A program made the position numbers and the translations under genes. Source: Physcomitrium patens (taxonomy: Eukaryota > Streptophyta > Bryopsida > Funariales > Funariaceae). From it: a stretch of 64,000 nucleotides of DNA. This document shows positions 1 through 64,000 of this stretch, piece by piece. Within the stretch, counting starts at the first letter, position 1, and the number at the start of each line of letters is the position of its first letter. The notes beneath the pieces are model-generated. The model was not told where the DNA came from, made no database searches, and saw only the letters and a list, made by a program, of their open reading frames with translations. The stretch spans positions 2,235,958-2,299,957 of the forward strand of contig NC_037253.1 of assembly GCF_000002425.4 (NCBI RefSeq). Direction: 5' to 3'.

Positions 1-605
1 ATACTGCTCAAGACAAAAGAAAAGAAAGACTTGATAACAAAGAAGATACTAAGAATAATATCAATTTAGAAGTGGATAATCCGCAAACTTCTAATACGCT
101 TAGGTCTTGTCAAGAGAAAGGGGTAATCCACTCTTACTCAAGAAAAACAAAGCTCTGATATTGTAAGTGTACTCTTGTCAATCAGCCAAGGACAAGAACT
201 CGATGAAAAATAATTCAGTCAAGTGAGCCTTCACTCAAAGAGAGGTAACAAAATATATATAAACAAGTATATATATTGTAAGAGAAACTGGAATGGCTAT
301 TGCCAAAAGACAAAAAAACTAGAGACCCTTGAAACTAGACTAGAAGCAAGAAAAGAGTTGACAAGAGTGAAGAGAGCTATAAGACCTCTAATATGTGTTG
401 ACTTTCTAGGCCACATGTCTTTGCATGTAAGGCAAGTTTTCTATGAGTGGACTACGTAGTTAGCTTGTCATTCAAGCTACCAACATGTGTGGCTCATCGC
501 TAACTTGTTGATCAAGTTTCTAACCAAAAAGACAACTATGGAATCCTATATGGTCGAAGCAGCGTCTATGAAGCTTCTAGGAAGCTTCTCTAGAAGATAT
601 TGCAG
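1..605 (-). mobile_element. Left-edge family D chromovirus, 5' LTR and leader only
   Basis: Read on the minus strand this is a family D 5' LTR (605 down to 184), then a leader (183 down to 1). It matches the element starting at 57803, including the leader motifs around 120-160. The gag gene would lie left of the window. About the first 125 bp of the LTR are missing: at 605/606 it abuts the truncated LTR of element A, so the two were joined by nested insertion or rearrangement. No real coding sequence is visible here. Confidence 0.8.
171..181 (-). promoter_or_regulatory. Candidate self-priming primer-binding site
   Basis: Starting 2 nt after the inferred LTR end (184), the minus strand reads TTGACAAGAGT. 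This is the exact complement of an 11-mer inside the same LTR (358-368, minus-strand ACTCTTGTCAA), placed where the transcript should begin. In Tf1/sushi elements the RNA 5' end folds back and primes reverse transcription in this way. The inference rests on position, length and co-variation with elements B and C. Confidence 0.6.
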
Positions 606-15064: not shown

Positions 15065-15805
15065 ACGGGACGACCAAGATCATTTTCTAACCCTACATGG
15101 AACAAGCCTAGTAGATATATACCGATGGAGGCACCCAATATGCCTAATGGGGGTGGAAGAAGACCACTTCGTTGTTTCCATTGCAGATAGATTGGTTATT
15201 ATGCCAATGAATGTCCTAATCCAAGGGCCAGTGATGACTTTGCTCCAATATGTAGAAATTGTAAGCAGTCTGGTCACACTTATCAATAGTGTAATGCGCC
15301 CTTTAATTATAATAACCGAGACTAGCAAATGCAAATAAGCCAACCGGCGGAAGACAAAAGCCTTGTTCAACGAGACACCAGTACATCATATCGAGGTGGT
15401 GAACGCAGTGCTTATCAAAAGCCAACAAAAAGAAAAGAATCCAATTCAAGACATAGATGAACAAATCGCAAGAGAGCAAGTAGCACCGTCCATGGGACTA
15501 AATGAACCAATATCGGTATTGGAACGTATCCCAATATTGAGACTTCAACAGACTAAGGAACCTAATTTGGTTCCACGTGCCAATTGGTCGGGACCATTCA
15601 ATCCAGGTCCTGTTCTGGGCTTCGTACCTAGTATGAGACCTGACTTAGTGGCACAACTCAATGAGGTCCCAATTACGGAGGCTTCGGTTCCGTTCCAAGC
15701 AATTTTGATCTCTATGCAGTTCCAAGAAACGTCCTATCCGTTGAAAGATCCTCTACGGGGTGGAAATTCCAAAGAAGCCCGACTGTTGTTCCAATTTCAA
15801 GTCCA
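15065..15805 (+). pseudogene. Element E gag C-terminal part
   Basis: Begins with two clear zinc knuckles (15160-15305): CFHCRQIGYYANEC (with a stop at the Gln) and CRNCKQSGHTYQQC (with a stop at one Gln). The open frame 15363-15805 is Pro-rich, with repeated Asn-Trp, Pro-Gly and Met-Arg-Pro motifs (RANWSGPFNPGP, SMRPDLVAQ). That part is also found at 57458-57802 and, degraded, inside the H LTR. Chromovirus B interrupts the frame at 15806. Confidence 0.7.
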
Positions 15806-15823
15806 TGTTAGGGACATAATCCT

Positions 15824-15943
15824 TAGAACCTTCTAGAGACAAGTTTCTAGAACCTTGTAGAGACAAGTTTCTAGAACCTTCTAGAGACAAGTTTCTAGAA
15901 CCTTCTAGAAGCAAGTCTCTGGAACCTTCTAGAAGCTTCCTAG
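15824..15943 (+). promoter_or_regulatory. Five 24-bp units resembling heat-shock elements
   Basis: Exact 24-bp periodicity (starts 15824, 15848, 15872, 15896, 15920). Units carry TAGAACCTTCTAGAGAC or close variants, giving overlapping TTCnnGAAnnTTC arrays. The best stretch, 15893-15910, is TTCtaGAAccTTCtaGAA, four alternating blocks at the 2-nt spacing expected for heat-shock factor trimers. The array lies just upstream of the TATA box. Function is inferred from motif shape only. Confidence 0.6.
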
Positions 15944-16012
15944 TTGATAGAAGTTGGTTGAGAAGCTTCCTAAATAGGAGTATATATTAGAATCGAGGCT
16001 GAAGAGTTCTTC

Positions 16013-16023
16013 AGTCTCGACAA
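16013..16023 (+). promoter_or_regulatory. Predicted transcript 5' end and self-primer of B
   Basis: AGTCTCGACAA begins 32 nt after the first base of the TATA box. It is the exact complement of the 11 nt that start 2 nt after the LTR (16147-16157). In a self-priming element this would be the first 11 nt of the RNA. Confidence 0.6.
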
Positions 16024-16146
16024 CACATCTCTTCGAGCTCTAGCTCATCTCTCTGGTGTTTTTCTCATCTGATTAATTTAGTTCTTGTCAGTTCTTTTTA
16101 AACTTCTTGTTAGTTCTCGAGTCTGTATTTCTGTGTCCATGACAGT

Positions 16147-16157
16147 TTGTCGAGACT
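16147..16157 (+). promoter_or_regulatory. Candidate self-priming primer-binding site of B
   Basis: TTGTCGAGACT, separated from the LTR end by 2 nt and fully complementary to 16013-16023. The initiator-tRNA-Met-like TATCAGAGC at 16172-16180 starts 28 nt past the LTR end, too far to define the LTR terminus by tRNA priming. Confidence 0.6.
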
Positions 16158-16423
16158 ACACTCACCTCAGATATCAGAGCTAGTTTTTCTTTATTAGAGT
16201 GTGGATTACCCCTCTGTTTGGAAGTGTACTAGCATTTTAGAGGTTGCGGATTACCCTCCTCTAAATTGATACTTCTTTTGTTAGAATATTGGAGTCTTAT
16301 TCTTCTTGGAAAGAGTGGATTACTCCTTCTCTTGAAGCTCTTAAGGCATTTTTGAGGTTGCGGAGTACCGTCCTCTAAACCAATATTATCTTCTTGTAGA
16401 GTCATTTTTGTCCTTCTCTTAGA

Positions 16424-17400
16424 ATGGCCGAGGGCCAAGACATAAGTATGACGGAAAGTTCGGAGTTCAAGTTAGATGCTATCATGAATGCCCTCTCTAC
16501 GTCATCACAAAGAACTGCAGAGATTGAAGGAGTCGTGGCAAGGCTTCATAATGATGGAGCATTTGGGATGGTACAATCTAAGTTGCACCAGCCTCAAACT
16601 ACTGCACTTGGAGAAGCAACTTTGCCTCAGGTTCGACAAGCACCGCTGATTCTACAACATAAAGAGTCCCGAGTTAGCCTTCTGGACAAGTTCGATGGTA
16701 TGCATTCTAAGTTTCGAAGATTCGTCAATCATATCAGGTTGATAACAGTTTTAGAGCTCGAACGCTATCCAACGGAGGAGTCACGTGTTGGACTTGTTGG
16801 AACCTTATTTACAGAACAAGCTCTATCATGGTTTGCTCCTTTGATTGAGAAATGATCGTCCATACTAAACAACTTTGAAATCTTTTTGGAGGTATTTGCG
16901 GAAGCATTTGGTGAACACAACAAGGTTTAATGGGATATAACAAAGATCCGGTCACTATGACAAGGGATGCGCTCTACATCAGTCTATGCATCGGACTTCA
17001 CGCAATTAACATGCGACATCAATTGGGACGAAGAAGCGTTGATGAGTCAATTCTATTGGGATTTAAGGGACGATGTGAAGGATTTGCTGTTAACTCTTCC
17101 TGATCCACAAACGCTCAACGAAGCTATTAGCCAAGCTGTGAAGTACGATAACTGCCTATTCTAATGCTGCCAAGACCAACGTTTAAGACAACATATAGTT
17201 TGCCACACCCCAACTATGTCAGTAAGCAATGTGAATTCACATTCAGAGGTAGAAGACATATAAATTGATGCGGTACTTGTCAAATTCCTTACTCTAGAAG
17301 AAAAAAAGTGACGTATGGAGGAAGATCTATGCTTGTATTGCGGTGAAGAAGGCCACAAAGTTGGAAACTGTCCCAAGAAGCAAAATCGACGTATTGTCAA
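16424..17400 (+). pseudogene. Element B gag with CCHC knuckle
   Basis: The ATG at 16424 begins MAEGQDISM. The first open part runs to a TGA at 16853-16855; the frame resumes at 16967-17163 after damage, with DINWDEEALMSQF and LLTLPDPQTLNEAISQA, both shared with the D gag. The zinc knuckle CLYCGEEGHKVGNC is at about 17335-17376 (CX2CX4HX4C). Gag would package RNA into virus-like particles. Several stops make this copy inactive. Confidence 0.85.
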
Positions 17401-17454
17401 GACTAGAGGTGTGTTTACTAAAGAAAATGAGGATGCCTAGCCACAATAAGAACC

Positions 17455-18296
17455 GTGCAGCTGGGCAGTAAAATATTGCAACAACAACCAGGTTCTTTTC
17501 TTTCCGCTCAACCTGCCCTTTGTTTTAGAATCCTTTTGTTTATTGGCCCTCAGAAACTAAGAACTTTAGCATTATTAGATTCAGGAGCATCTGCTTATTT
17601 TTTAGATGAAGAATTTACAAAGCATCATAAGATCCCTTTAGTATAAAAATCCAAACCTGTTCACGTTGAGGTCATAGATGGGCGACCTTTATTGTCTGGT
17701 AGTATCACCCATGAATCAGAACCTATAGAAGTGACGTTTAAGGGCCATAGTAGTCATATTATTTTCAATATTATTAGAATTCCATCAAATCCTGTTATTC
17801 TTGGTCTTTCCAGGTTGGAAAAGCATAACCCATCCATAGATTGGAAGTTGTGAAAGATGACCTTTCCCACAAAACCACCCAAAAGCAAGTCTAGTAAAAA
17901 ACCCCGAATAGAGAAATCCTTATTTATTGGAGCAAGAGCATTTATAAGATCATCCAAGAAAGGCACACCATTTGTCATTTATGCGGCTCCAACTACTGGG
18001 GTGAAGATCTCGACAACAAGTATACCGGAGCAATGTAAGGATTTCAAAGACATGTTTCAAAAGAAAAATGCCAACATGCTACCAGAACACAGACCATATG
18101 ATTGCGCCATAGACTTATAGGAAGTAGCACAACTACCTTTTGGCCCAATTTATAATCTATCGCAGATGGAATTGGCGGAGTTACGGAAGTACATTGACAA
18201 GAATCTAGCCAAGAACTTCATCCGTCATTCAAAATCGTTGGCTGGAGTATCCATCTTATTTGTGAAGAAGAAAGATGGCCCATTACAGATGTGCCT
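17455..18296 (+). pseudogene. Element B protease and truncated RT
   Basis: The protease active site [13 protein letters not shown] is intact (about 17572-17610). The linker includes [11 protein letters not shown], the 17857-18120 frame and the FGPIYNLSQ motif. RT begins (KNFIRHSKS, then FVKKKDG) and stops at about 18296, where the sequence jumps into the integrase core. Two or three in-frame stops precede the break. Confidence 0.85.
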
Positions 18297-19272
18297 GGCG
18301 CACTTTGTTCCTTACAAGAAGACATTATCCAGTGAAGTCATAACAAGGCTCTTTCTCGATAATGTGTATCGATATCATGGACTATCAGATGATATCGTAT
18401 GAGATCGAGGAACCTTGTTTGTATCAAAGTTTTGGAGATCTATCTTTGAGATACTGAAGGTGGATATCAAGCTTTCTTCGGCTTTTCATCCTCAAACTGA
18501 CGGCCAAATGGAACGGGTGAACCAAGTCTTAGAACAATACTTACAATGCAGCATCAACTATCAGCAAGACGATTGGACCACATATCTGTTGCTTGCCGAG
18601 TTTGCATATAACAACACCCTCCATGCGTCGACTCAATACACACCATTCTTTTTCAACTATGGGTATCATCTAAAGCTTGATTTATTGATTCTGTCAACAA
18701 ATAACAATCCAACAGCTGAAGGATTTGTGAAACAACTATCAGAGCTTCAAAATATGTTGAAGCTTCAATTACAATCCGCTCAAGAATCCTACAAGGCGTT
18801 TGCAGATAGATTTTGAAATCAAGCACCTACTTTCAAAATTAGAGATAAAGCATGGCTTCTTCGATGGAATATCAAGACCAAGCAACCATGTGATAAGTTG
18901 GACTATCGAAGATTGGGACCATTTATCATCCAAAAGCAAATCAATCTTGTGGCGTATCGTCTGAAATTACCGGCTTCTATGAAGGTACATCCCGTCTTTC
19001 ATGTTTCTTTGTTAGAGCCTTATCGAGAGTCAACTTTTCCTGAAAGATTGCAATGTCCGCCACCTAGTATTGAGATTGAGAACCATAAAAAATACGAGGG
19101 TGAAAAGGTACTGGATTCACGACGAAGGTGGGGCAAGTTGGAGTATCTTGTTCATTGGTGCGGCTACGACATTAATGAGCAAACATGGAAGCCAACTAAA
19201 AATCTCGCCAATGCGCCACAAAAGGTACAGGAGTTTCATCAACAACATCCTCATAAACCTAAGCCGGTTTGA
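18297..19272 (+). pseudogene. Element B integrase core, GPY/F region and chromodomain
   Basis: Starts in the integrase core (AHFVPYKK), keeps the second Asp region (DDIV then a stop, then DRGTLF) and the catalytic Glu (HPQTDGQMERVNQ). The C-terminal LGPFIIQKQINLVAYRL and HPVFHVSLLEPY blocks follow at 18898-19025. A chromodomain lies at about 19090-19260 (LEYLVHWCGYDINEQTW). The last 124 codons are open. Chromodomains in this clade direct integration toward methylated histone H3. Confidence 0.85.
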
Positions 19273-19409
19273 CGATAGCTTCCTTTTGAAGCTTGCTCAT
19301 CCACGAATATAAGAAAGGGAGAGAGCACTACCAAAATTTGTAGTTGATGTAGTTATTTTTTCCAAGATAAAATAGAATTTTTTCAATAGCCATAGTTTGG
19401 TCTTCTGAT

Positions 19410-19763
19410 ATGGATAGCCAAGAGATAGATACTATGCTAGTCAGATTATCTCAACTGACTAGCTCACGAAGGCGATCCCAAGATAAAGAACTGCCTACAC
19501 CATGACGACGACGGAGGATACCGAGTAACCAATCATTGGTGATTTTATTTGAGTCCAAGCCTGCTTACGATGGTCAGCCAAAAGGCGTGTATGCTGGACA
19601 ATTTCATAATGAGGATACGGAAGTTCATGCTTGGTCAGAAGTTGAAGGAGTAGGCCACTACCGTGGGCTTCAAGGGTCGATGAATCACTTGCCTCGTGAA
19701 CAACAGTTGGAGTTCATAGCAGACGTTATGCGACAGATCTTCATTTTCTTACGTTGGTACTGA
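19410..19763 (+). pseudogene. Extra 3' ORF of element B (one stop)
   Basis: An ATG at 19410 opens 118 codons with a single in-frame TGA near codon 32. Features: N-terminal MDSQEIDT, an Arg-rich patch, a hydrophobic SLVILFE block, NEDTEVHAWSEVEGVGHYRG, and a C-terminal helix-like stretch ending in IFIFLRWY. No signal peptide and no long membrane segment. It has its own ATG after the pol stop and lies just before the polypurine tract, the place env occupies in some elements. I do not recognise the family. Confidence 0.65.
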
Positions 19764-19798
19764 TTAACAACAACATTGCTTCTCAAAGACCTCGAAGC

Positions 19799-19810
19799 TA
19801 AAAGAGGGAG
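19799..19810 (+). promoter_or_regulatory. Polypurine tract of B
   Basis: TAAAAGAGGGAG immediately precedes the 3' LTR, where plus-strand DNA synthesis is primed. Confidence 0.75.
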
Positions 19811-20229
19811 TGATATTAAGGACATAATCTTTAGAATCTTCTAGAGAGAAGTTTCTAGAACCTTCTACAAACAAGTTTCTAGAACCTTCTAGAAGCAAGT
19901 CTCTGGAACCTTCTAGAAGCTTCTTAGTTGGCAAAAGATATTAGAGACATAGTCCTTAGAACCTTCTAGATATAAGTTTCTAGAACCTTCTAGAAACAAG
20001 TCTTTGGAACCTTCTAGAAGCTTTCTAGTTGGTAGAAGTTACTTGAGAAGCTTCCTAAATAGAAGTATATATTGGAATCGAGGCTGAAGAGTTCTTCAGT
20101 CTCGACAATACATCTCTTGGAGCTCTAGCTCACCTCTCTGGTGTTGTTCTCATCTAATTAATCTAGTTCTTGCTAATTCTTTTTAAACTTCTTGTTAGAT
20201 CTTGAGTCTATATTTTTGTGTCATTGACA
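19811..20229 (+). repeat. 3' LTR of B with internal duplication
   Basis: 419 bp rather than 339 because the first part of the LTR, about 126 bp with the 24-bp units, occurs twice (the second start is near 19938). The 11-mer AGTCTCGACAA is at 20098-20108. It ends TTGACA at 20229. Confidence 0.85.
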
Positions 20230-39167: not shown

Positions 39168-42100
39168 CTACCGCTGTACACTCGTGTCTATCTCCTCCAC
39201 CACCTTCGGCCTTTTGTAGCGTTTCAGCCACAGCGACGAACATACTACCGACACCGATGACGCCGCCATGGCTGCACCCGCCACCCACGGAGGCAACCGG
39301 AACCCCGTGCTTGGGAACAGCGCCCCCGCAGCTATGGGGATGCCCAGCACATTGTACCCCAACGCCCACACGTAGTTCAGCCAGATCCTGAAGAACGACT
39401 TCCGTGACAAGTCTATCCCTGTGATCACGTCCTCCAGGTTGCTCTTCATCAGCACGATGTCCGCCGCCTCGATCGCGATGTCCGTCCCCGCTCCTATCGC
39501 CATCCCCACGTCCGCTGCGACCAACGCTGGCGAATCGTTGATGCCGTCCCCCACCATGGCCACCGACGTCCCTGCCGCCTGCATCCCACAAACCTCAGCG
39601 TCAGCATGCTTGTTCACCAAGCGTCCTCATCACTCGCCTCTGCTTCCCCCATTACGCAATCCAATCCCACCCCGGCGCTCGCGTTCCCTCCCCAGGTCAA
39701 ACTCCCCCCGCAGCCCCCACGCATGCTCGTGCACCAGGCAAACCACGAACCTGCATTTCTTCCACGATCCTGGCCTTGTCTTCTGGCAACGACTCTGCGT
39801 GCACGCATGGCCTCTCGATTCCCAACTCCCTCGCAATCGCCACGGCTGTGCCCCAGTTGTCCCCCGTGACCATCATGCTGCGCACGCCCATTGACTTGAG
39901 GATGCTGATTACTCTGGCTGCTTCCGGCTTCACTGGATCCGCGATGGACACCACCCCCACCAACTCCCTCTCGATGGCAACCATCACTCCCGTCCTGGCC
40001 AAAGTCTCCACATCGCGCAAGTGCTCCTCCGCTTCTTCCGATATGTGGATCCCGTGCTCCTTCATCAGTCGCATGTTCCCCACCAGGGTCGCCTTGCCGT
40101 CCACCACGGCGCGCACTCCCTGCCCTGGAATGGCCTCGAAATCACGCACCTCGTGTTGCTGCTGACCATGGGACGAATGCTCGCCGCTGATCTTCCTGGA
40201 GTACGCGACGATCGCTTTTCCCAGTGGGTGCTCGCTGTTGACCTCCGCTGCTGCGATTGTGTCGTAGAACACGTGCAGAGGAATGTTCGTGAGCAGCTTG
40301 GTGTGAACGACGATGGGCTTCCCGATTGTCAGCGTCCCGGTCTTGTCGAAAACCACCGTCTTCACCTTGTGTGCAGCCTCCAGTGCCTGACCCCCTTTGA
40401 TCAGGATCCCCTGCGTCGCGCCCTTCCCTGTGGCAACCATTATTGCGGTGGGTGTGGCCAGGCCGAGGGCGCAGGGGCACGCGATGACGAGCACTGATAT
40501 CCCGAACTGAAGTGCCAGCTCGAACTCGTCCATCGCAGCCGGAATCCATGACTTTGGGTACGAGCGTGCTTTGCCTCCAACGTACCAAGCCAGCCACGTG
40601 ACGAACGCCGCGACCACCACGGCGGGGACGAAGTAAGTGGAGATGCGATCCGCATACTTCTGGACCGGGGCTTTGCCCATTTGGGCGGCTTCCACCAGCC
40701 GCACAATTTGTGCCAATGCGGTCTCCGCCCCTACGTGTGTGGCTCGAATGTGTATCACGCCGTGGTCGTTCATGGTGCCTCCTATCACCTTGTCCCCTAA
40801 TTTCTTCGGTACGGGGCGGGCTTCGCCTGTTATCATGCTCTCGTTCACGAAGGATTGTCCCCACACCACCACACCGTCCGTGGGCACTTTCGAGCCCGGT
40901 ACCACCTGCGCAAGCCAAAACGACTTTTCATTGCAAGAACGGGCACAACTACAATCATGGCTGCCACGCTACCCACTAGGACCGCTTCACGGGAACGACA
41001 CGCACCGCAACTCTCTAGCACAAGCTTCTACAATGGCCCACATACAAACCCGACTCTGTTTCCAACCGTCCGACTCTCCGAATCGGTATGGACAGCCGCA
41101 TCCAACAACCCCCAGCGAAAGCCCAAGCCTGAAACGTAGCACCTACAACACCAGCGCGTAGGCCTACCTTGATGATGTCTCGCCGCTGGATGAGCTCGGC
41201 CCCGATTTCCCTCTCTCCTGCCACGTCCCCCTCCTCGTCCAGAGTGAGCAGAGTCGCCTTGTCCGGAGCGAGGTCCATCAGCTTGGCAACGGCTTCCGAG
41301 GTCTTCCCCTTGGCCATTACTTCCAAATACTTTCCCAGGATGATAAACGAAATGAGCATCGCGCTCGTTTCAAAAAAATCCGTGCCCTTGAACGTAGGAG
41401 ACGTAGCCGCCCGCAACACTATGTACACAGAATAAAAGTACGCTGCGTTCGTGCCCATGGCAATTAGCACGTCCATGTTCGACGACCCTCGCCGGAGCGC
41501 CTTGTACGCTCCCACGTAGAACCTTCTCCCGATAACGAACTGCACCGGAGTCGCAAGAATCCACCGCAGCAAAGCTCCGATCGACAAGCCGTTCAGCCTG
41601 CCGTGCTCCAGACCCTCCATAATGCCTGGTATGTACATAAACACCATGGACAAAAAGAACACTGGGACCGTGAACACCAAGCTCCAAAGGAAGTACTTCT
41701 TGTGGTGCTGGATCTCCAAGCCCCTGTCGTGACTCCCACGACCACGAGGTGCCTCCAACTTCGCTGTGAAAACTCCCGCCTGCTCGATGGTCTCTATGAA
41801 AGTCCTCGGCCCAGCCCTGTCGGGCTCGTACGATACTGTGACCATCGCATTGCTGAAATCCAAATCCACCGATGTCACGCCGGACAGAGCCACCAGCATC
41901 TCTTTCACGAGCTGGAAGTCCGCTGCAGCCGTCACGCCTTCCAGCTGCAGACGGATTCTGTTCGTCTCTTCACCTGCGATCAGAAGCTCGGCCTCGTAAC
42001 CCAGGTCATCTATGGCGGCGGCAAGCTGGACGTGAGAAATCACTCCAGCATCGTGCCTCACCTCGCACTCCTCCGTGGCGAGGGCTACTACGGCCTTTTG

Positions 42101-43381
42101 CACTCCATCCAGCTTTTTCAGCGAAGACTCTATGGAGTTTGAGCAAGAGGTGCACGTCATGCCCTTGATACGAAAACGGCTGATGCTCCCGCTCCGTTGA
42201 CCGGCATCGTCCACAATTGCTTCCGCCTCGAACCCCGCGTCCTCGATCGCCTCCCGAATGCTTTCCTCCTGGATTCCACTTTCCCCGTGTAAGATTCAAT
42301 GCCTTCCAATTCCACCGCTGCCCACATCCATCTTACTTCTGAGCTCCTAGCTGCCACGGTCCATCTGGCGGATTGCTAAATTGACCCTCTCACCACATGC
42401 AAAGTTTTGGAGCACCCCTCACTGCACACCTTTCAAGTCGTTTCCTACAACATTGCTACAAGCATCTTCTTGCCGTCCGCATTGCACCGCGTGCTGCGCG
42501 AACGATCCCCGCTTCACTGGTCCCGACGGAATTCTGAACAACACGGAGTGGGAGGAATTGTACCTGTACGAAGGCGGGCCTGTACACAACTTGAGCCCGG
42601 TTCTGCAATACTGACACCGTTGCTTCCTCGATGCCGGGCAACCTCTTCACGGCTTTCTCGATGGACCCCGCACACGCTGCGCACTCCATCCCTGTAACCT
42701 GTACACCCAATCAACACATACATATGAAATGACGACCCCGTGGAATCAATTGCCAAACCACACATGTCCCATTTGAACCAGCCCCACGCACGTTCTACCA
42801 CTGGATCAGAAAGTCGAGCGGCGCCGCTAAACGTTGCTAGCACGATCCGCTTTCGGCCCCTGGGGTTCTCCTATGCAACAGACCTTTGAGGAATTCTGCT
42901 CCCATTCATCGCTCTCATGTTCAAGTGCTCATCACTGCTTTTCTCGCGAAATCCCCGACTTATTCCAGCGCCAAGCACTTTCACCACGACCGTTCCTACT
43001 GGAATTTAACAGGGACTCACAACAGAGATCTCCCCTCCTCCCAGGCCGGGCGATAACCTGCCCAGATATGGCGTAAACAAGAAGGCAAGAAAATCACTCC
43101 AAAACAACTCCACAACCACGCCACTCCGGCGTTTCAATGCCGCTGCTAAACCCGCACTTTGTGAGGGTTGCATTACAGACCTTCAAGTTTGCTTTGCGAA
43201 TCTCCGAGACGTCAACTTCGCCATGCAAGGGCGACAGCGGGTACCGCGGCATTGACGGATACCGAGTTGAAGACGACAAACTGCGCTCCAGCAAAACATC
43301 CTCCTTCTTCTTCTTTCTCCTCTCGCTCTCCGTCGCCGACCCCGTTCGAGGTGCAAGCACAACTTTCATCAGCGACTGCAT
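39168..43381 (-). CDS. HMA5: Copper-transporting P1B-type ATPase, HMA5 clade (5 exons)
   Basis: Plant Cu(+) export ATPase. Exons on the minus strand: 43381-43181, 42698-42564, 42268-41168, 40905-39751, 39578-39168 (stop TGA included). All four introns (482, 295, 262 and 172 bp) are GT-AG and phase 0, giving 1000 residues, about the usual HMA5 length. Metal-binding domains: CAAC at 73-76, CTSC at 151-154, and a third HMA-like domain (about 214-280) without its Cys pair. TGE at 505-507, intramembrane CPC at 622-624, DKTGT at 666-670, SEHP at 703-706, TGDN at 826-829, GDGIND at 874-879, YN at 939-940 and MxxSS at 968-972 are all intact. A His/Gln-rich loop follows SEHP. No premature stop or frameshift. 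MKSNLEDVI and [13 protein letters not shown] favour HMA5 over RAN1/HMA7. The first exon is the weakest part: ATG at 43381, or a second at 43369. Confidence 0.9.
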
Positions 43382-51397: not shown

Positions 51398-51780
51398 TGT
51401 CACGAATTTAGAATACTGATTGGAAATAAGAAGCTCAAGAAGAATTGGCAAGAATTAGATTAATGAGATGAATACAAGAACAACACTAGAGAGGTGAGGT
51501 AGAGCTCGAAGAGGTGTATTGTCGAGAGTGAGGATCTCCTCAGTTCTAGCTCCTATATATACTACCAGCTAGGAAGCTTCTCAAGTAGCTTCCACAAACT
51601 AGGAAGCTTTTCAAGCAGCTTCTACGAGTTAGGAAGCTTCTCAAGCAGCTTCTACAATCTATAAAACTTCTCAAGGAGCTTCCATGAGCTAGGAGGCTTC
51701 TCAAGCAGCTTCCACTAACTATAAAGATTTTCTAGAATCTTCTAAAATCTTCTACAACTTCCTAGTATATGTCCTTAACA
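51398..51780 (-). repeat. 3' LTR of C (A-like)
   Basis: On the minus strand it runs from TGTTAAGGACATA at 51780 to GTGACA at 51398. It has five 30-bp units (51567-51716) and a TATA box near 51555. The predicted RNA start ACTCTCGACAA differs by one base from that of B. Confidence 0.85.
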
Positions 51781-57105: not shown

Positions 57106-57116
57106 AGTCTCGATAA
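57106..57116 (-). promoter_or_regulatory. Candidate self-priming primer-binding site of C
   Basis: Minus-strand TTATCGAGACT starts 2 nt after the 5' LTR end at 57119. It pairs with the LTR 11-mer at 57240-57250 except for one position, consistent with a C-to-T change since insertion. Confidence 0.55.
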
Positions 57117-57802: not shown

Positions 57803-58350
57803 TGTCACGGCCATAATCATGTAAGCTAATAATTACATATAGAAATAGGTAGAAGTAAGTAAAAGTAGATAAAAGTAAGTTAATTCTATAATATTTAATA
57901 TAGAAGCTTCCTAGAAACTTTTTAGACGCTGCTTTGACTTCATAGGTGTCTTTAATTGACTTTTTGGATTAGAAACGTGGACAACAAGTTGGCCATGTGC
58001 CACACATGTTGTTAGCTTGAAGATCAAGCTAACTATGTGGCCCTCACGCAAAACAACTTGCCTTGTAAGTCAAGGCATGTGTCCTACAAAGTCAACACAT
58101 ATTGGAGGTCCTGTAGAACGTTGCCACGTAGCCCCTAGTTAGATAGTATACAAAGACAAGAGTGAAGGCTTCTTCACACTTGTCAACTCCTTTCTTGGTT
58201 CTAGTCTACGTTCAAGAGTCTTTAGTTTCTTGTCTTGTGGCAATAGCCATTCTAGTTTCCTTTTAATATACCTACTTGTTTATATTTTGACTTATTATAT
58301 CGAGATAGCTTTTTTGTATATTTTCCCTCATCGAGTCTTTGTCCTTGACA
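57803..58350 (+). repeat. 5' LTR of D
   Basis: 548 bp, TGTCACGG to CTTGACA. It has a heat-shock-like GAAGCTTCCTAGAAAC block (about 57915), a TATA-like tatacaaag near 58147, and the 11-mer ACACTTGTCAA at 58176-58186 (one mismatch to the intact ACTCTTGTCAA). Confidence 0.85.
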
Positions 58351-58352
58351 GA

Positions 58353-58363
58353 TTGAGAAGAGT
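58353..58363 (+). promoter_or_regulatory. Candidate self-priming primer-binding site of D
   Basis: TTGAGAAGAGT, 2 nt after the LTR. It differs by one base from the intact family D site TTGACAAGAGT at the left window edge. The tRNA-Met-like TATTAGAGC (58374-58382) lies 24 nt past the LTR end. Confidence 0.55.
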
Positions 58364-58560
58364 ACTCTTACAATATTAGAGCTTTGTTTTTCTTGAGTGA
58401 GAGTGGATTACTCCTTTCTCTTGACAAGACATAAGCGTATTAAAAGTTTGCGGATTACTCACTTCTAACTGATATTGTTCTTAGTATCTTCTTTGTTATC
58501 AAGTCTTTCTTTTTTTTTGTCTTGAGCAATATCAAACAAATTTTTCTTTTTAGTGTCATT

Positions 58561-59490
58561 ATGGCAGAGCTTGTTGAAATGAAGAGTGCAATGGCACAAA
58601 TGCAAGAGCAAATGAGGGAGTTAATGCTTGCGATGCATCAACTCAATTCTCCAACACAGGAAAGAACAAGAATAGCAGAAAGTGGCGATATAGAGATGAT
58701 CGGAGCTGCTTCAACATCTACAACAAATCACGTTCCTTCTCCAATTGTAAAACACCCTATAAGCACTAGAGAACCAAGAATTGCCTTACTTGAGAAATTT
58801 GATGGTACGAGATCAAAGTTTCAAGGGTTCAACAATCAAGTACAATTGGCAATTGAACTTCAACCGCAAAGCTATCCAACTCCAGGATCACAAGTCAGAT
58901 TTATTGGCACTCTACTTTCTGATTCTGCATTATCGTGGTTTTCGTCTTTTCTTGAACAACGAAATCTAATATTGGACAATTTGGAAGCATTTTTGGCGGA
59001 GTTTCGATCTATGTATGGTGAACACGATGTAATTCGTGTTATAAAAAATAAGATCCGAATTGTGGGACAAAGAAATCGCTCAGTTACAATATATGCTTCA
59101 CAATTTCGACAACTTGCAATTGACATCAAGTGGGATGATGCTGCACTCATCAATCAATTTCTTTATGGATTGCAGTATGAAGTAAAGAAATTGATGCTCA
59201 ACTTACCTGATCCTCAAACTTTGAGTCAAGCAATCGATTTTGCGGTAAAATGTGATAATCGACTTTTCGAATTTCGATCCGAGAATCATTCAGGAGAACC
59301 TCAACGTTATTAGTCAATGGCAACATCAACATCTTTGCCAAACGTACATTCAGAAGTAGAAGACATGCAAATTGACGCGGTACGTTTTAAACCTCTAACT
59401 GAGCAAGAAAAGATTCATCGTCGTCAAGAAGGATTATGTTTATATTGCGGAGAACCTAAGCACACTGCTCAACATTGTCCAAAGAAATGA
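58561..59490 (+). pseudogene. Element D gag with CCHC knuckle
   Basis: I choose the ATG at 58561 (MAELVEMKSAMAQMQEQ), aligned with the B start; upstream codons lack ATG context. 251 codons are open to a TAG at 59311-59313. They include a coiled-coil-like N-terminus, RIALLEKFDGTRSKFQGF, FLEQRNLILDNLEAFLAEF and LPDPQTLSQAIDFAV. The same frame continues past the TAG to the knuckle CLYCGEPKHTAQHC, so one substitution split gag. Confidence 0.85.
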
Positions 59491-59589
59491 CGCAACAATA
59501 AAATGAGGGGTACGATAGTCAAAGAAGACAACATGTCAGAAAATGGATTCGTTCAGCTACAATAGGGACGAGGCAGCTGGAATCTTGTA

Positions 59590-61145
59590 CAATTCCTTAT
59601 GAAGGTCCTATCTTCTCCTCAGAACCCTCTCCTTGTTTTATAATAGACTTATATTTAGGACCTAAGAATTACAAAGCCTCTGCTTTATTAGATTCGGGAG
59701 CCTCAGCATGTTTTTTAGATGAACAATTTGTTAAAAGTCGTAAAATACCCTTTGTACAGAAACCTAAACCAGTATATGTTGAAGTCATAGATGGTCGTCC
59801 CTTGTCTTCTGGAGATGTCACTCATGAAACTCATCCTATAAAAGTAACAATAGACGGTCATGATAGCTACATAGCTTTTAACATAATTAAATCCCCATCC
59901 AATCCAGTTATTTTAGGTTTATCCTGGCTAAAAAAATATAATCCTCGAATAGATTGGAATTCGCGTAAACTTGACTTTTTCCAAAGCGTTATTAATAGTT
60001 CTACCAACCAAGTAAAAAATTATAAGTCTATTATAGTAAAATCCGTACTGATAGGTACAAAAGCATTTATACACGCAGCAAAAGAAGGATCAACTTTTGC
60101 TATTTATGCTGCACCTATTTCTGAAAACATAAAAACTTCAAGTGGCATTCCAAGTCAATATCAGGAGTATCAAGACGTTTTTGAGAAAAAAAATGCAGAC
60201 ATTCTTCCTGAGCATCGTCCATATGATTGTTCAATCGACTTCAAGGAAGGAACTCAGCCACCATTTGGACCAATTTACAGTTTATCGCAAGATGAGATGG
60301 CTGAACTCAAGACATATATTGACGAGAATTTAGCGAAGAATTTCATACGCCATTTAAAATCTCCAGCAGGAGCTCCAATTCTATTCGTAAAGAAAAAAGA
60401 TGGATCTTTACGAATGTGTGTTGATTATCAAGGACTCAACAAGATCACAATCAAGAACAGGTATCCATTACCTTAGATATCAAGACTCCTTGACCAGTTG
60501 AATCAAGCTAAGATCTATACAAAAATAGATCTAAGAGGAGCATATAATCTAGTACAGATCAAAGAAGGAGATGAATGGAAGACTGCGTTTCGAACCAGGT
60601 ATAGACATTTCGAATATAATGTCATGCCCTTTGGACTCACGAATGCACTAGCTGCTTTTCAACATCTCATGAATGATGTATTTCGTGAATTTTTAGACAA
60701 TTTTGTCGTCTGCTATCTAGACGATATCCTGATCTATTCTAAGAATGTCGAAGAATATGAAATACATGTTCTTCAAGTATTACAAAAACTTAGAGATGCA
60801 GGATTGTACGTCAAGATGGAAAAGTGTGTATTTCACACTACTCAAGTTGACTTTTTAGGATACATCATTTCAAATGATGGTCTCATGATGGATTCTAAGA
60901 AAGTCCAAACAATCATGGATTAGAAGATTCCAAGGACAGTAAGAGATGTCCAATGTTTCTTGGGATTTGCCAATTACTATCGGATCTTTATTAAAGATTT
61001 CTCACGAGTTGCAGCTCCACTTACACGCTTGACTAGTAAAGATAAATTGCAATGGAATCAAGAAGCGGAAGCAGCATTTGAAGCCTTGAACACATCGTTT
61101 GTCTCTGCACCAGTCTTATATCGTGTTGATTTTTCAAGGCATTTT
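59590..61145 (+). pseudogene. Element D protease and reverse transcriptase
   Basis: Protease [16 protein letters not shown] (about 59682-59730) is intact. The open frame 59802-60476 covers the linker and RT start ([19 protein letters not shown]). A TAG at 60474-60476 and another at 60921-60923 (Trp in A and C) interrupt RT. The active site [10 protein letters not shown] lies in 60498-60923. [17 protein letters not shown] and the thumb follow. Confidence 0.9.
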
Positions 61146-61816
61146 TTATGGAAACAGATGCATCAGATTTTGCCTTGGGTGCAGTTTTATCACAAATGGG
61201 AACAGATGACAAACTTCATCCGATAGCTTTTCATTCAAGAAAATTCTCAGCAGCCGAGATCAATTATGAGATCCACGATAAAGAACTTCTTGCAATCGTG
61301 GATTCCTTTCAAGAATGGCGTCATTATCTAGAAGGCGCTTCTAGTCCAGTCACTGTGTATATAGATCACAAGAACCTCGAGTATTTCATATCAGCACGCG
61401 TGTTGAATCGTCGTCAAGCTTGTTGGAGTATGTCCTTGTCAAGATTCGAGTTCATTATCACTTATCGGCCAAGAAAACAACAAGGTTTGTCTGATGCCCT
61501 ATCTAGACGTTCTTATTTTGCACCAAAAGAAGGAGATGCAGCTTTTGAGCAACAAAGAACGTTCCTCTTGAAACCGGAGCAATTTCATCTCCGAGCAATG
61601 AAATCAACATTGACTGTTGATTCAACTTTCTCAAGCAAATCTAGTCCAGTATATCCTCAGACCCTCTTGCTTATGATATCGAGAATAATTCTTCCAAGTC
61701 TCATGATCCTTCTAAGTTCGAGTTCAAGAATAATCTATTATATTTTGAAGGACGCCTATATGTTCCAAAAGGAGAAGCATGTTTACGTGTTCTTCAAGCA
61801 CGTCATGACTTTCTAG
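61146..61816 (+). pseudogene. Element D RNase H
   Basis: Offset by a frameshift near 61145. [36 protein letters not shown] and [13 protein letters not shown] hold the catalytic Asp and Glu residues. It then runs into the connection to integrase, with a frameshift near 61640. Confidence 0.9.
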
Positions 61817-62895
61817 CAGCAGGGCACTTTGGATATAATAAGACTTTGGAACTCATATCAAAAGATTTTTGGTGGCCACAAATGTGGAAGTCAGTCAAAG
61901 ACTTTGTACAATCATGTGATATTTGTTCAAGATCAAAAATTCCTCGTCATCGACCTTACGGACTTCTTCAGCCATTACCTATACCAGAACAACCATGGTC
62001 TTCTGTTTCTATGGATTTCATCACAGATCTTCAAAGTTCAAGATCTTATGATTCTATATTTGTGATAGTAGATCGTTTCACCAAGATGGCACATTTTGTG
62101 CCATGTACAAAATCTATCACAGGTGAAGAAACAGCTAAGCTTTTCATTGATAATATCTATCGCTATCATGGATTACCTAAAGATATCATATCGGATAGGG
62201 GAACTCAATTTGTGTCAAGATTTTGGAGGACCCTTTTCAAGATTTTAAAAGTGGACATAAAGCTATCTTCGGCTTTCCATCCTCAAACTGATGGACAAAC
62301 AGAGCGCGTAAACCAAGTCTTGGAGCAATATTTAAGGTGTACTATCAACTACCAACAAGATGATTGGACAACCCTTCTGCCATTGGCAGAGTTTGCTTAT
62401 AATAATACAGTACATTCTTCCACGCAACAAACACCTTTCTTTGCCAATTATGGCTATCATCTACGACTTGATACTTTTGATTTTTCAAAAGTTGATAATC
62501 CTGCAGCAGAAGATATGGCAAATCGGTTGTCAGAGTTAGCTGCAATAATGAAGATGCAATTGAAAGAAGCTTAAGAACGACAAAAGATAAACGCAGATCT
62601 ATATCGTAAGGAGCAACCACAACTCAACGTGGGTGATAAGGTATGGCTACTTCGTCGCAATATCAAGACTACTCGACCTTGTGACAAGATGGACTATCGT
62701 AGGCTTGGCCCCTTTTTTGTTTTTGAACAGATCAACCCAGTTGCATATCGGTTACATCTACCGGAGTCAATGAAGATCCATCCTGTATTCCACGTGTCTC
62801 TTCTTGAACCATATAAGACAGCGGATATACAAGGAAGAAGACAAATGCCACCGCCTCCTATAGAAGTAGATAATAATGAAGAATTTGAGGTGTAA
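61740..62895 (+). pseudogene. Element D integrase and GPY/F region
   Basis: Zinc-binding part: HDFLAAGHFGYNKTLELI and CDICSRSK. Core: SMDFITDLQSS, then VIVDRFTKMAHFV, ISDRGTQFVSRFW and HPQTDGQTERVNQ, so the DDE triad is present. 242 codons (61846-62574) are open to a TAA. The GPY/F region is at 62629-62895 (LGPFFVFEQINPVAYRLHLP, HPVFHVSLLEPY). Confidence 0.9.
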
Positions 62896-63036
62896 GAGAT
62901 ATTGAACTCAAGGCGGCGCCGAAATAAGCTGGAATATCTTGTGCATTGGCGCGGATATGATATTAGTGAACGCACATGGGAGCCATCTAGGAATCTAGCA
63001 AATGCATCAGCTAAAGTCAAAGTTTTTCATCAATGA
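62896..63036 (+). pseudogene. Element D chromodomain
   Basis: After a TAA, NSRRRRNKLEYLVHWRGYD and SERTWEPSRNLANASAKV form a well-conserved chromodomain, with aromatic residues at the usual cage positions (Tyr, Trp, Trp). It ends at a TGA (63034-63036). Confidence 0.85.
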
Positions 63037-63151
63037 CATCCATCGAAACCAAGATGAAAATCTCTCTTATAAAAGAGACAAGATTGAGACAAGATAACAT
63101 TCAATTTCCTATTCTTGTTTGTAACTTCTTTGCATTTGAGATGCTAATTAG

Positions 63152-63574
63152 ATAGAGAGCCAACAACCAACGGATTCAACTCAAGAACCTTCGTTTGCTA
63201 ACCTATCGGACGAGATATTACGATTGTCACAACCTTCAAGACGACGCAATCGAGATGGAGATCTTCAAAAACGACTTGTTCTTCCTCGAACAGATGGTGA
63301 GATACAACGCGTTTGGTATCACGATTTGGAAAGGGACTCTCGATGTTTGGTGATTTTGCTAGAAGTAGGAACAACTCCTGATGGTGTTTCGAATATTCTA
63401 TTCGAAGGAAGTTACGAAGGCCTCAACAATGATCAAATAACTGGGTGGTCTTCCTGCCCTGGTATGGGACACTATCGATGGTTGAGAGGCCCTATCAATC
63501 ATCTTCGAAGAGAATAGAGATCAGAGTATGAGGCGAATACAATTTGTCGCATCATAGATTTCCTCAACATATGA
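63152..63574 (+). pseudogene. Extra 3' ORF of element D (nearly intact)
   Basis: 141 codons with a single in-frame TAG at 63515-63517. The expected ATG is ATA here (G has ATG at the same place). Blocks: SQQPTDSTQEPSFANLSDE, an Arg-rich patch (PSRRRNRDGDLQKRL), VWYHDLERDSRCLVILLEV, TTPDGV, then GWSSCPGMGHYRWLRGPINH and CRIIDFLNI. It lies 115 bp after the pol stop and 28 bp before the polypurine tract. No membrane segment is obvious. Unknown function. Confidence 0.65.
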
Positions 63575-63601
63575 TGACCGCTCCTTGTGGAACTCGTCTC
63601 T

Positions 63602-63615
63602 AGAAGGGGGGGTAA
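63602..63615 (+). promoter_or_regulatory. Polypurine tract of D
   Basis: AGAAGGGGGGGTAA directly before the 3' LTR; G has AGAAGGGGGAGTAA at the same position. Confidence 0.8.
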
Positions 63616-64000
63616 TGTCACGGCCATAATCATGTAAGCTAATAATTACATATAGAAATAGGTAGAAGTAAGTAAAAGTAGATAAAAGTAAGTTAATTCT
63701 ATAATATTTAATATAGAAGCTTCCTAGAAACTTCCTAGATGCTGCTTTGACTTCATAGGTGTCTTTAATTGACTTTTTGGATTAGAAACGTGGTCAACAA
63801 GTTGGCCATGTGCCACACATGTTGTTAGCTTGAAGATCAAGCTAACTTTGTGGCCCACACGTAGAAAAACTTGCCTTATAAGTCAAGGCATGTGTCCTAC
63901 AAAGTCAACACATATTGGAGGTCCTAGAGAATGTCACCACGTAGCCCCTAGTTAGATAGTATATATAGAGACAAGAGTGAAGGCTTCTTCACTCTTGTCA
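63616..64000 (+). repeat. 3' LTR of D, first 385 bp
   Basis: Collinear with 57803-58185. TATATATA (about 63960) lies 32 nt before ACTCTTGTCA, the intact form of the predicted RNA 5' end, at which the window stops. Confidence 0.9.

Follow-up and report, generated by a model that had tools for sequence, protein, structure and literature searches.

Sequence evidence for self-primed reverse transcription in RLG1-like chromoviruses of the moss Physcomitrium patens and for a U3/R hairpin that may sequester the primer

Self-priming is established in retrotransposons of the Tf1/sushi group. In Tf1 and Tf2 of Schizosaccharomyces pombe the first 11 nt of the RNA are complementary to the PBS and the LTR ends in CA, and for Tf1 a three-duplex “pretzel” has been described (PMC10085805, PMC7175516). 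The moss elements analyzed here are alike in the 11-nt complementarity and in the CA end, and a crossing duplex predicted in them resembles one arm of the pretzel; they differ in having a plant host and, as far as a comparison by description goes, in a U3/R hairpin that the consulted parts of the Tf1 descriptions do not mention. In plants, self-priming has been predicted for most Tcn1 chromoviruses of mosses and club-mosses and also for the TAR elements of Ty1/copia (Houba, Osr-1), which are likewise predicted plant self-primers of another superfamily (Neumann 2019, PMC6317226), meaning that the initial annotation of this DNA, in which no well-described plant case was known, has to be corrected on this point. 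Selaginella SM-Tcn1 was reported with neither a tRNA nor a self-priming site (Novikova 2010, PMC2864245). The moss elements resemble the Tcn1 clade as far as the prediction goes, and no analysis of a hairpin or of co-variation was found in the parts of PMC6317226 and PMC2864245 that were consulted. The P. patens element PpatensLTR2 is among those compared in PMC10085805, where nonseed plants are counted in the Tf1/sushi group, and 5' hairpin priming in chromoviruses and hairpins in LTR promoters are treated in general terms in PMC3601003. RLG1, a chromodomain gypsy family that is transcribed in protonema, is the most abundant family of P. patens, with 5092 complete elements (PMC7466625, whose consulted sections do not mention priming); its abundance is matched by the thousands of leader matches obtained here. 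As argued below, the moss elements very probably use the initial 11 nt of their own RNA as the primer of reverse transcription.

The window (the whole stretch of DNA analyzed, 64,000 nt) contains copies of two types, B and D, with the following features:

15806..20229, + strand: LTR element B, an RLG1-like chromovirus copy of 4.4 kb, delimited by direct repeats, TG..CA ends and the flanks GTCCA/GTCTA
15806..16144 and about 19814 to 20229, + strand: 5' and 3' LTRs of B, from direct repeats
15981..15988, + strand: TATA box of B, from the sequence
15992..16004, + strand: left arm of the U3/R hairpin of B, upstream of the predicted start, first base unpaired
16009..16021, + strand: right arm of this hairpin, including primer nt 1-9 (folding, -18.9 kcal/mol, z -5.1)
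16013..16023, + strand: predicted RNA 5' end and self-primer of B, AGTCTCGACAA
16024..16046, + strand: LTR stretch beside the primer of B (CACA 16024-16027, CTAGCTC 16040-16046), with a predicted partner in the leader past the PBS
16145..16146, + strand: 2-nt spacer GT between the GACA end of the LTR and the PBS of B
16147..16157, + strand: PBS of B, TTGTCGAGACT
16172..16180, + strand: TATCAGAGC of B, resembling a tRNA-iMet PBS, without TGG
16177..16183, + strand: GAGCTAG of B, predicted partner of CTAGCTC in the LTR
57106..57116, - strand: PBS of a second B copy (L017), TTATCGAGACT, one change; its primer lies at 57250-57240
358..368, - strand: self-primer of the D copy at the left window edge, ACTCTTGTCAA
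171..181, - strand: PBS of the D copy, TTGACAAGAGT
57803..64000, + strand: element C, D-type, extending to 64156 past the window, with a TTTGT target duplication at both ends
58176..58186, + strand: primer in the 5' LTR of C, ACACTTGTCAA, one change
58353..58363, + strand: PBS of C, TTGAGAAGAGT, one change, a variant that recurs across the genome
63970..63999, + strand: U3/R hairpin in the 3' LTR of C, perfect over 13 bp (folding, -21.3 kcal/mol, z -6.1)

Coding remnants of C include pieces of gag, protease, RNase H, integrase and a Tf2-1-like SH3, the integrase piece being 54% identical to an Anolis gypsy integrase. Among the 120 matches listed (7778 in total) six were named by organism, all of them vertebrate (four Anolis, Xenopus and Leptobrachium) at 50-59% identity. 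SH3_Tf2-1 was detected in C, and no chromodomain in the two downstream pieces that were scanned; a relative, P0003, 75% identical, has a chromodomain. The window elements are most likely Tf1/sushi-type (Tcn1-like) chromoviruses of family RLG1, their placement near fungal and vertebrate chromoviruses otherwise following the published classification.

The initial annotation had proposed that the RNA of these elements begins with 11 nt complementary to the sequence located 2 nt past the LTR. In B the pairing is complete, AGTCTCGACAA at 16013-16023 being the exact reverse complement of TTGTCGAGACT at 16147-16157; the terminal GACA of the LTR (to 16144) is followed by GT, which gives the 2-nt distance, and the first T of the TATA box (15981) is located 32 nt upstream of the 11-mer, as had been claimed. 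The D copy pairs at 11/11 positions as well (ACTCTTGTCAA, 368-358, with TTGACAAGAGT, 181-171), its LTR edge reading GGCT+GA and not GACA+GA. Element C conserves the layout with the decay ascribed to it, one change in each of ACACTTGTCAA and TTGAGAAGAGT, and its 3' LTR at the window edge still reads ACTCTTGTCA.

The pairing was followed in 102 copies, that is, 100 loci picked by their leader (L001-L080 and L101-L120) together with B and D of the window, which came from the original observation; apart from these two, the copies were selected without regard to the PBS. The leader pick was ACACT..TATCAGAGC, copies with an altered leader falling outside it, and it included a third window copy (L017). 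By leader family the set comprises 45 B, 26 E and 31 D copies; among all the fetched copies E, D and B are the large families and F, G (one locus) and H (four loci) the small ones. Further loci were picked because of a changed PBS, namely L081-L100, which are 20 of the 21 such places in that set (L075 is the other), and L141-L160, in which L145-L160 represent 16 of the 30 TTGAGAAGAGT places (L025 is another). L100 was not a real changed-PBS case and was left out, hence the 19 position-6 loci considered below; L161-L180 were taken from the 66 places of family F and cover 20 of them. After dropping L072, 159 of 160 loci were retained, corresponding to 87 distinct rows.

Primer and PBS paired at 11/11 positions in 63 of the 102 copies and at 10/11 or more in 92, taking as primer in each copy the best match to one of two 11-mers. 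When the PBS was slid along the sequence, the mean match was 10.47/11 at the PBS, 2.9 over the other offsets and 5.6 at the next best offset; assuming uniform bases, the probability that 11 nt match by chance at some position of a 330-nt LTR is estimated at about 8e-5. The 11-mer also begins where a transcript would be expected to begin. TATATA was present in 97/102 copies, 31-32 nt above the predicted start in 94 of these 97: the distance from its first T to +1 was 32 nt in 67/68 B/E rows (41/42 B, 26/26 E) and 31 nt in 27/29 D rows. C|A occurred at the predicted start in 96/102 copies, and the canonical TATA box and pre-start sequence were lost in 2/31 D rows, the window D copy and one other locus. 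The TATATA spacing together with C|A suggests that the 11-mer begins at the expected plant Pol II start.

Several searches addressed the specificity of this arrangement. The leader pattern ACACTNAC..TATCAGAGC produced 2114 matches in the genome (470 Mb, 101 contigs) and 0 in the reversed control. A sequence-blind scan of 256 kb (TATA, an 11-mer with GC of at least 4, a downstream complement with at most one mismatch and CA two bases before it) returned 5 sites, all of them known types of this element family, and 0 in the reversed sequence; no new self-priming family was revealed in these 256 kb under the GC filter and the CA edge. Keeping the GC filter and omitting the CA condition gave 25 matches vs 18 in the reversed sequence, and the unfiltered combination of TATA, primer and PBS gave 440 vs 498 over the same length, with AT-rich noise among the matches listed. 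Other repeat pairs of the window and L122-L140 reached a self-complementarity of at most 9/11, a value attained by at least 18 of 200 shuffles, in a control in which not all the repeat pairs were true LTR pairs and C entered with a shortened repeat only, hence no test of C. A codon-excluded integrase pattern for other gypsy families gave 0 matches, and in a viral contig collection 5 stretches matched a search pattern, none of them a relative.

The claim that primer and PBS co-vary stands between the two deep types and fails within them. The B and D types differ at 3/11 positions on both sides, primer positions 2, 6 and 8 changing with PBS positions 10, 6 and 4, that is, three double changes at one ancient split; the independent comparison of primers is thus one of two primer types. 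The examination of compensatory changes across copies, which the initial annotation had put forward, was positive at the type level, with 41 B/B, 22 D/D and 0 mixed perfect pairs in 102 copies, and negative at PBS positions 5 and 6: a matching primer base was found in 0/20 loci with position 5 changed and in 0/19 with position 6 changed. Neither L025 nor L075, both with a changed PBS, has the matching primer base, and L157, also changed, forms a G.U pair; altogether 0/41 loci were compensated. The variants at positions 5 and 6 were therefore rejected as independent support, and the co-variation evidence rests on the split of the two deep types. TTGAGAAGAGT, mispaired at one position, accounted for 30/65 loci of one sampled set and occurred on several backgrounds, suggesting that a PBS mismatch may be tolerated and propagated; either these copies are dead and have the change by common inheritance, or one mispair is tolerated.

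A somewhat doubtful but plausible alternative is that the copying cycle alone ties the primer to the PBS, so that the type-level co-variation would be a mechanical echo and not a result of selection, self-priming itself still being needed. This would follow from the retroviral scheme when applied to a self-primer, the plus-strand PBS being copied from the primer RNA in each round. Conversely, the recurrent mispaired PBS variants suggest that the PBS is not always renewed by copying, and the left arm of the U3/R hairpin, which in that scheme is never copied from the primer, also tracks it.

Apart from these comparisons, L100 (G000:C26:427001-427590) combines a B-type promoter and primer with a D-type leader and the PBS TTGATAAGAGT, and has the appearance of a recombinant or of a nested copy.

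The U3/R hairpin is real and common to the families seen. It consists of a left arm from -21 to -9, a four-base loop and a right arm from -4 to +9, giving 13 bp with the primer in the right arm, and was observed in leader families B, D, E, F, G and H, the outermost pair often being absent in B and E; the remnant LTR at 51502-51566 showed no comparable fold (z 0.30). In a set of 85 distinct sequences (the 87 rows minus L099, which is offset by one base, and L100, with its mixed B/D structure; the changed-PBS picks are included) 88.7% of the hairpin cells were paired vs 81.4% in shuffles, which reached the observed value in 0/500 cases, and the covariation score was 0.289 vs 0.168 (0/500), falling to 0.07-0.10 when the hairpin was slid; these shuffles ignore relatedness. 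In the same set, double-change pairs (7 vs 6.6 in shuffles, 295/500) and further pair types (19 vs 17.0, 50/500) were not distinguished from shuffles. Pair 26/33, which lies outside the primer, was AU in 62 sequences, GC in 19 (mostly family F) and GU in 3, and pair 21/38 was AU in 42 and GU in 40. Within a single type, pairing was not clearly above shuffles (68 of 1000 for the B-type, 99 of 1000 for the D-type), as evaluated in 116/122 rows after dropping L037, L059, L072, L077, L083 and the window D copy, which have no TATA. The evidence for co-variation in the hairpin accordingly comes for the most part from the difference between types, with family F in addition. In the GC-filtered 256-kb scan hairpins with at least 11 pairs were equally frequent in the real and the reversed sequence (6 and 6).

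The position of the hairpin bears on a general question about self-primers, namely what prevents the RNA from priming with the same sequence in its 3' repeat. An RNA begun at the correct site would lack the left arm at its 5' end, this arm lying upstream of the start, and the full hairpin would form only at the 3' end or in read-through RNA. Folding energies of -18.9 (B) and -21.3 kcal/mol (3' LTR of C) vs -16.2/-14.4 kcal/mol for the 11-bp primer:PBS duplex predict that the hairpin is the more stable structure. The hairpin may hide every copy of the primer except that at the authentic 5' end, in such a way that only correctly started RNA would prime. This “5'-end proof”, in which a co-varying U3/R hairpin sequesters the primer wherever U3 precedes it and the sequences of primer, PBS and hairpin arm constrain one another as a three-way code, is proposed tentatively, its probability falling a little short of even, and the same tentative weight is given to the role that the anatomy suggests for the hairpin, keeping the 3' and read-through copies of the primer off the PBS. 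No mention of a U3/R-border hairpin sequestering a self-primer was found in the consulted portions of the open-licence literature on self-priming retrotransposons, and the proposal is new in the sense that it was not found in print, the scope of this literature being no proof of novelty.

Alternatively, the hairpin could be a DNA-level promoter or start-site element, or a binding site, and not an RNA device, with the primer merely lying inside it. This explanation is somewhat doubtful, even though the hairpin is placed between TATA and start with a fixed geometry (-21..-9 with -4..+9) and LTR promoters often involve hairpin structure, as stated in general terms in PMC3601003, because many of the departures are G.U pairs (as at 21/38), with which a stem in RNA is kept and a palindrome in DNA is lost, and the arms change together between types.

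In the retroviral scheme minus-strand DNA starts at the primer, and after integrase trimming this start sets the U5 edge of the LTR. In B the similarity between the 5' and 3' LTRs ends at 16146 and the flanks GTCCA/GTCTA have the appearance of a 5-bp target duplication with one change (4/5), while in C an exact TTTGT duplication at 57803 and 64156 fixes the LTR end as TTGACA, then GA. The commonest LTR edges in the 102 copies were GACA+GT in 30/45 B and 20/26 E copies and GACA+GA in 26/31 D copies. The LTR ends of B and C and their target duplications would place the start of the cDNA at the 11-nt PBS and not at TATCAGAGC. The latter resembles the PBS of tRNA-iMet, and we take TGG to be a requirement for the CCA end of a tRNA; no TGG was found at the LTR edge of B, C or D. 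Priming by tRNA-iMet at TATCAGAGC, some 25 nt inside the LTR edge and with the 11-nt complementarity as an incidental feature, is very improbable and was rejected on the missing TGG and the LTR ends of B and C, since, against the presence of TATCAGAGC after the PBS in three large leader families (where it was part of the search pattern) and of TGGTATCAGAGC in one of 122 rows (L086, “G”), TGG is absent at TATCAGAGC in leader families B, D, E and F, a start there would add about 25 nt to LTRs that end in GACA with target duplications, and AGAGC is partly accounted for by LTR pairing in B, E and F.

Altogether, the 11-mer at the predicted start site, its exact length of 11 nt, the 2-nt spacing, the type-level co-variation and the lack of a usable tRNA site, as judged from TGG at the LTR edge, support the self-priming interpretation, which represents a known kind of priming, that of Tf1/sushi, well supported at the level of sequence. 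In this mechanism the TATA box would set the start at an A and the next 11 nt would be the primer; the 5' end of the RNA would fold onto the PBS, separated from the 5' LTR by 2 nt, the RNase H of the element would cut after nt 11, reverse transcriptase would extend from there, and integrase would trim 2 nt (GT or GA), leaving ..CA. These data provide many-copy, nucleotide-level support for self-primed reverse transcription in a land plant, where a clade-level prediction existed, in elements that apparently belong to the family most abundant in a model moss, and the exact predicted starts make RNA 5' ends and strong-stop cDNA checkable at single-base level.

A further duplex is predicted to join LTR sequence just past the primer to a part of the leader located 20-47 nt downstream of the PBS, and it crosses the primer:PBS duplex. 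It was evaluated in 96 distinct segments from 122 rows, with mean energies of -24.0 kcal/mol in 30 of the 66 B-type segments and -18.4 kcal/mol in 30 of the 30 D-type segments, vs -13.7 and -11.1 kcal/mol in shuffles, 0.5% (B-type) and 2.2% (D-type) of which reached these means. The register is common to most B, E and F copies, but only one D copy in two has the commonest pairs. When leaders were swapped between types the duplex lost only 1-2 kcal/mol, and it is consequently counted as compatible with self-priming, not as proof of it. In an unconstrained fold of the 5' end of B the primer:PBS duplex was present, its stability not being above shuffles (z -0.77), and the best unconstrained fold did not contain this duplex in 5/6 further examples.

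Other observations were made on the leader and the LTRs. By eye, a GTGGATTACCCC-like motif is repeated in short possible hairpins in the B leader at 16185-16400 (as TTAGAGG..CCTCTAA, 16237-16264) and also in the D and C leaders, and these hairpins are possible packaging or dimerization signals; a tandem repeat search of the B leader detected none. An inverted repeat, TGTC-CNT-GACA, directly precedes the spacer and PBS in both deep types (B 16134-16144, C 58340-58350). L086 (G000:C6:12082640) has the whole of TGGTATCAGAGC some 25 nt beyond its LTR edge, which would fit a tRNA site that is ancestral or was regained. The U3 of B contains 24-base tandem units (15824-15963, 19808-20048) that are arranged differently in the two LTRs.

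With respect to the rest of the window, positions 15460-17909 and 57803-55355 show an inverted similarity of 94-96% that runs from the flank into element B and the second B copy, which suggests a duplication or nested insertion later broken by C at 57803. On the minus strand, two frames at 39697-42295 match domains of heavy-metal P-type ATPases (HMA, E1-E2 ATPase and hydrolase) and probably correspond to a host gene.
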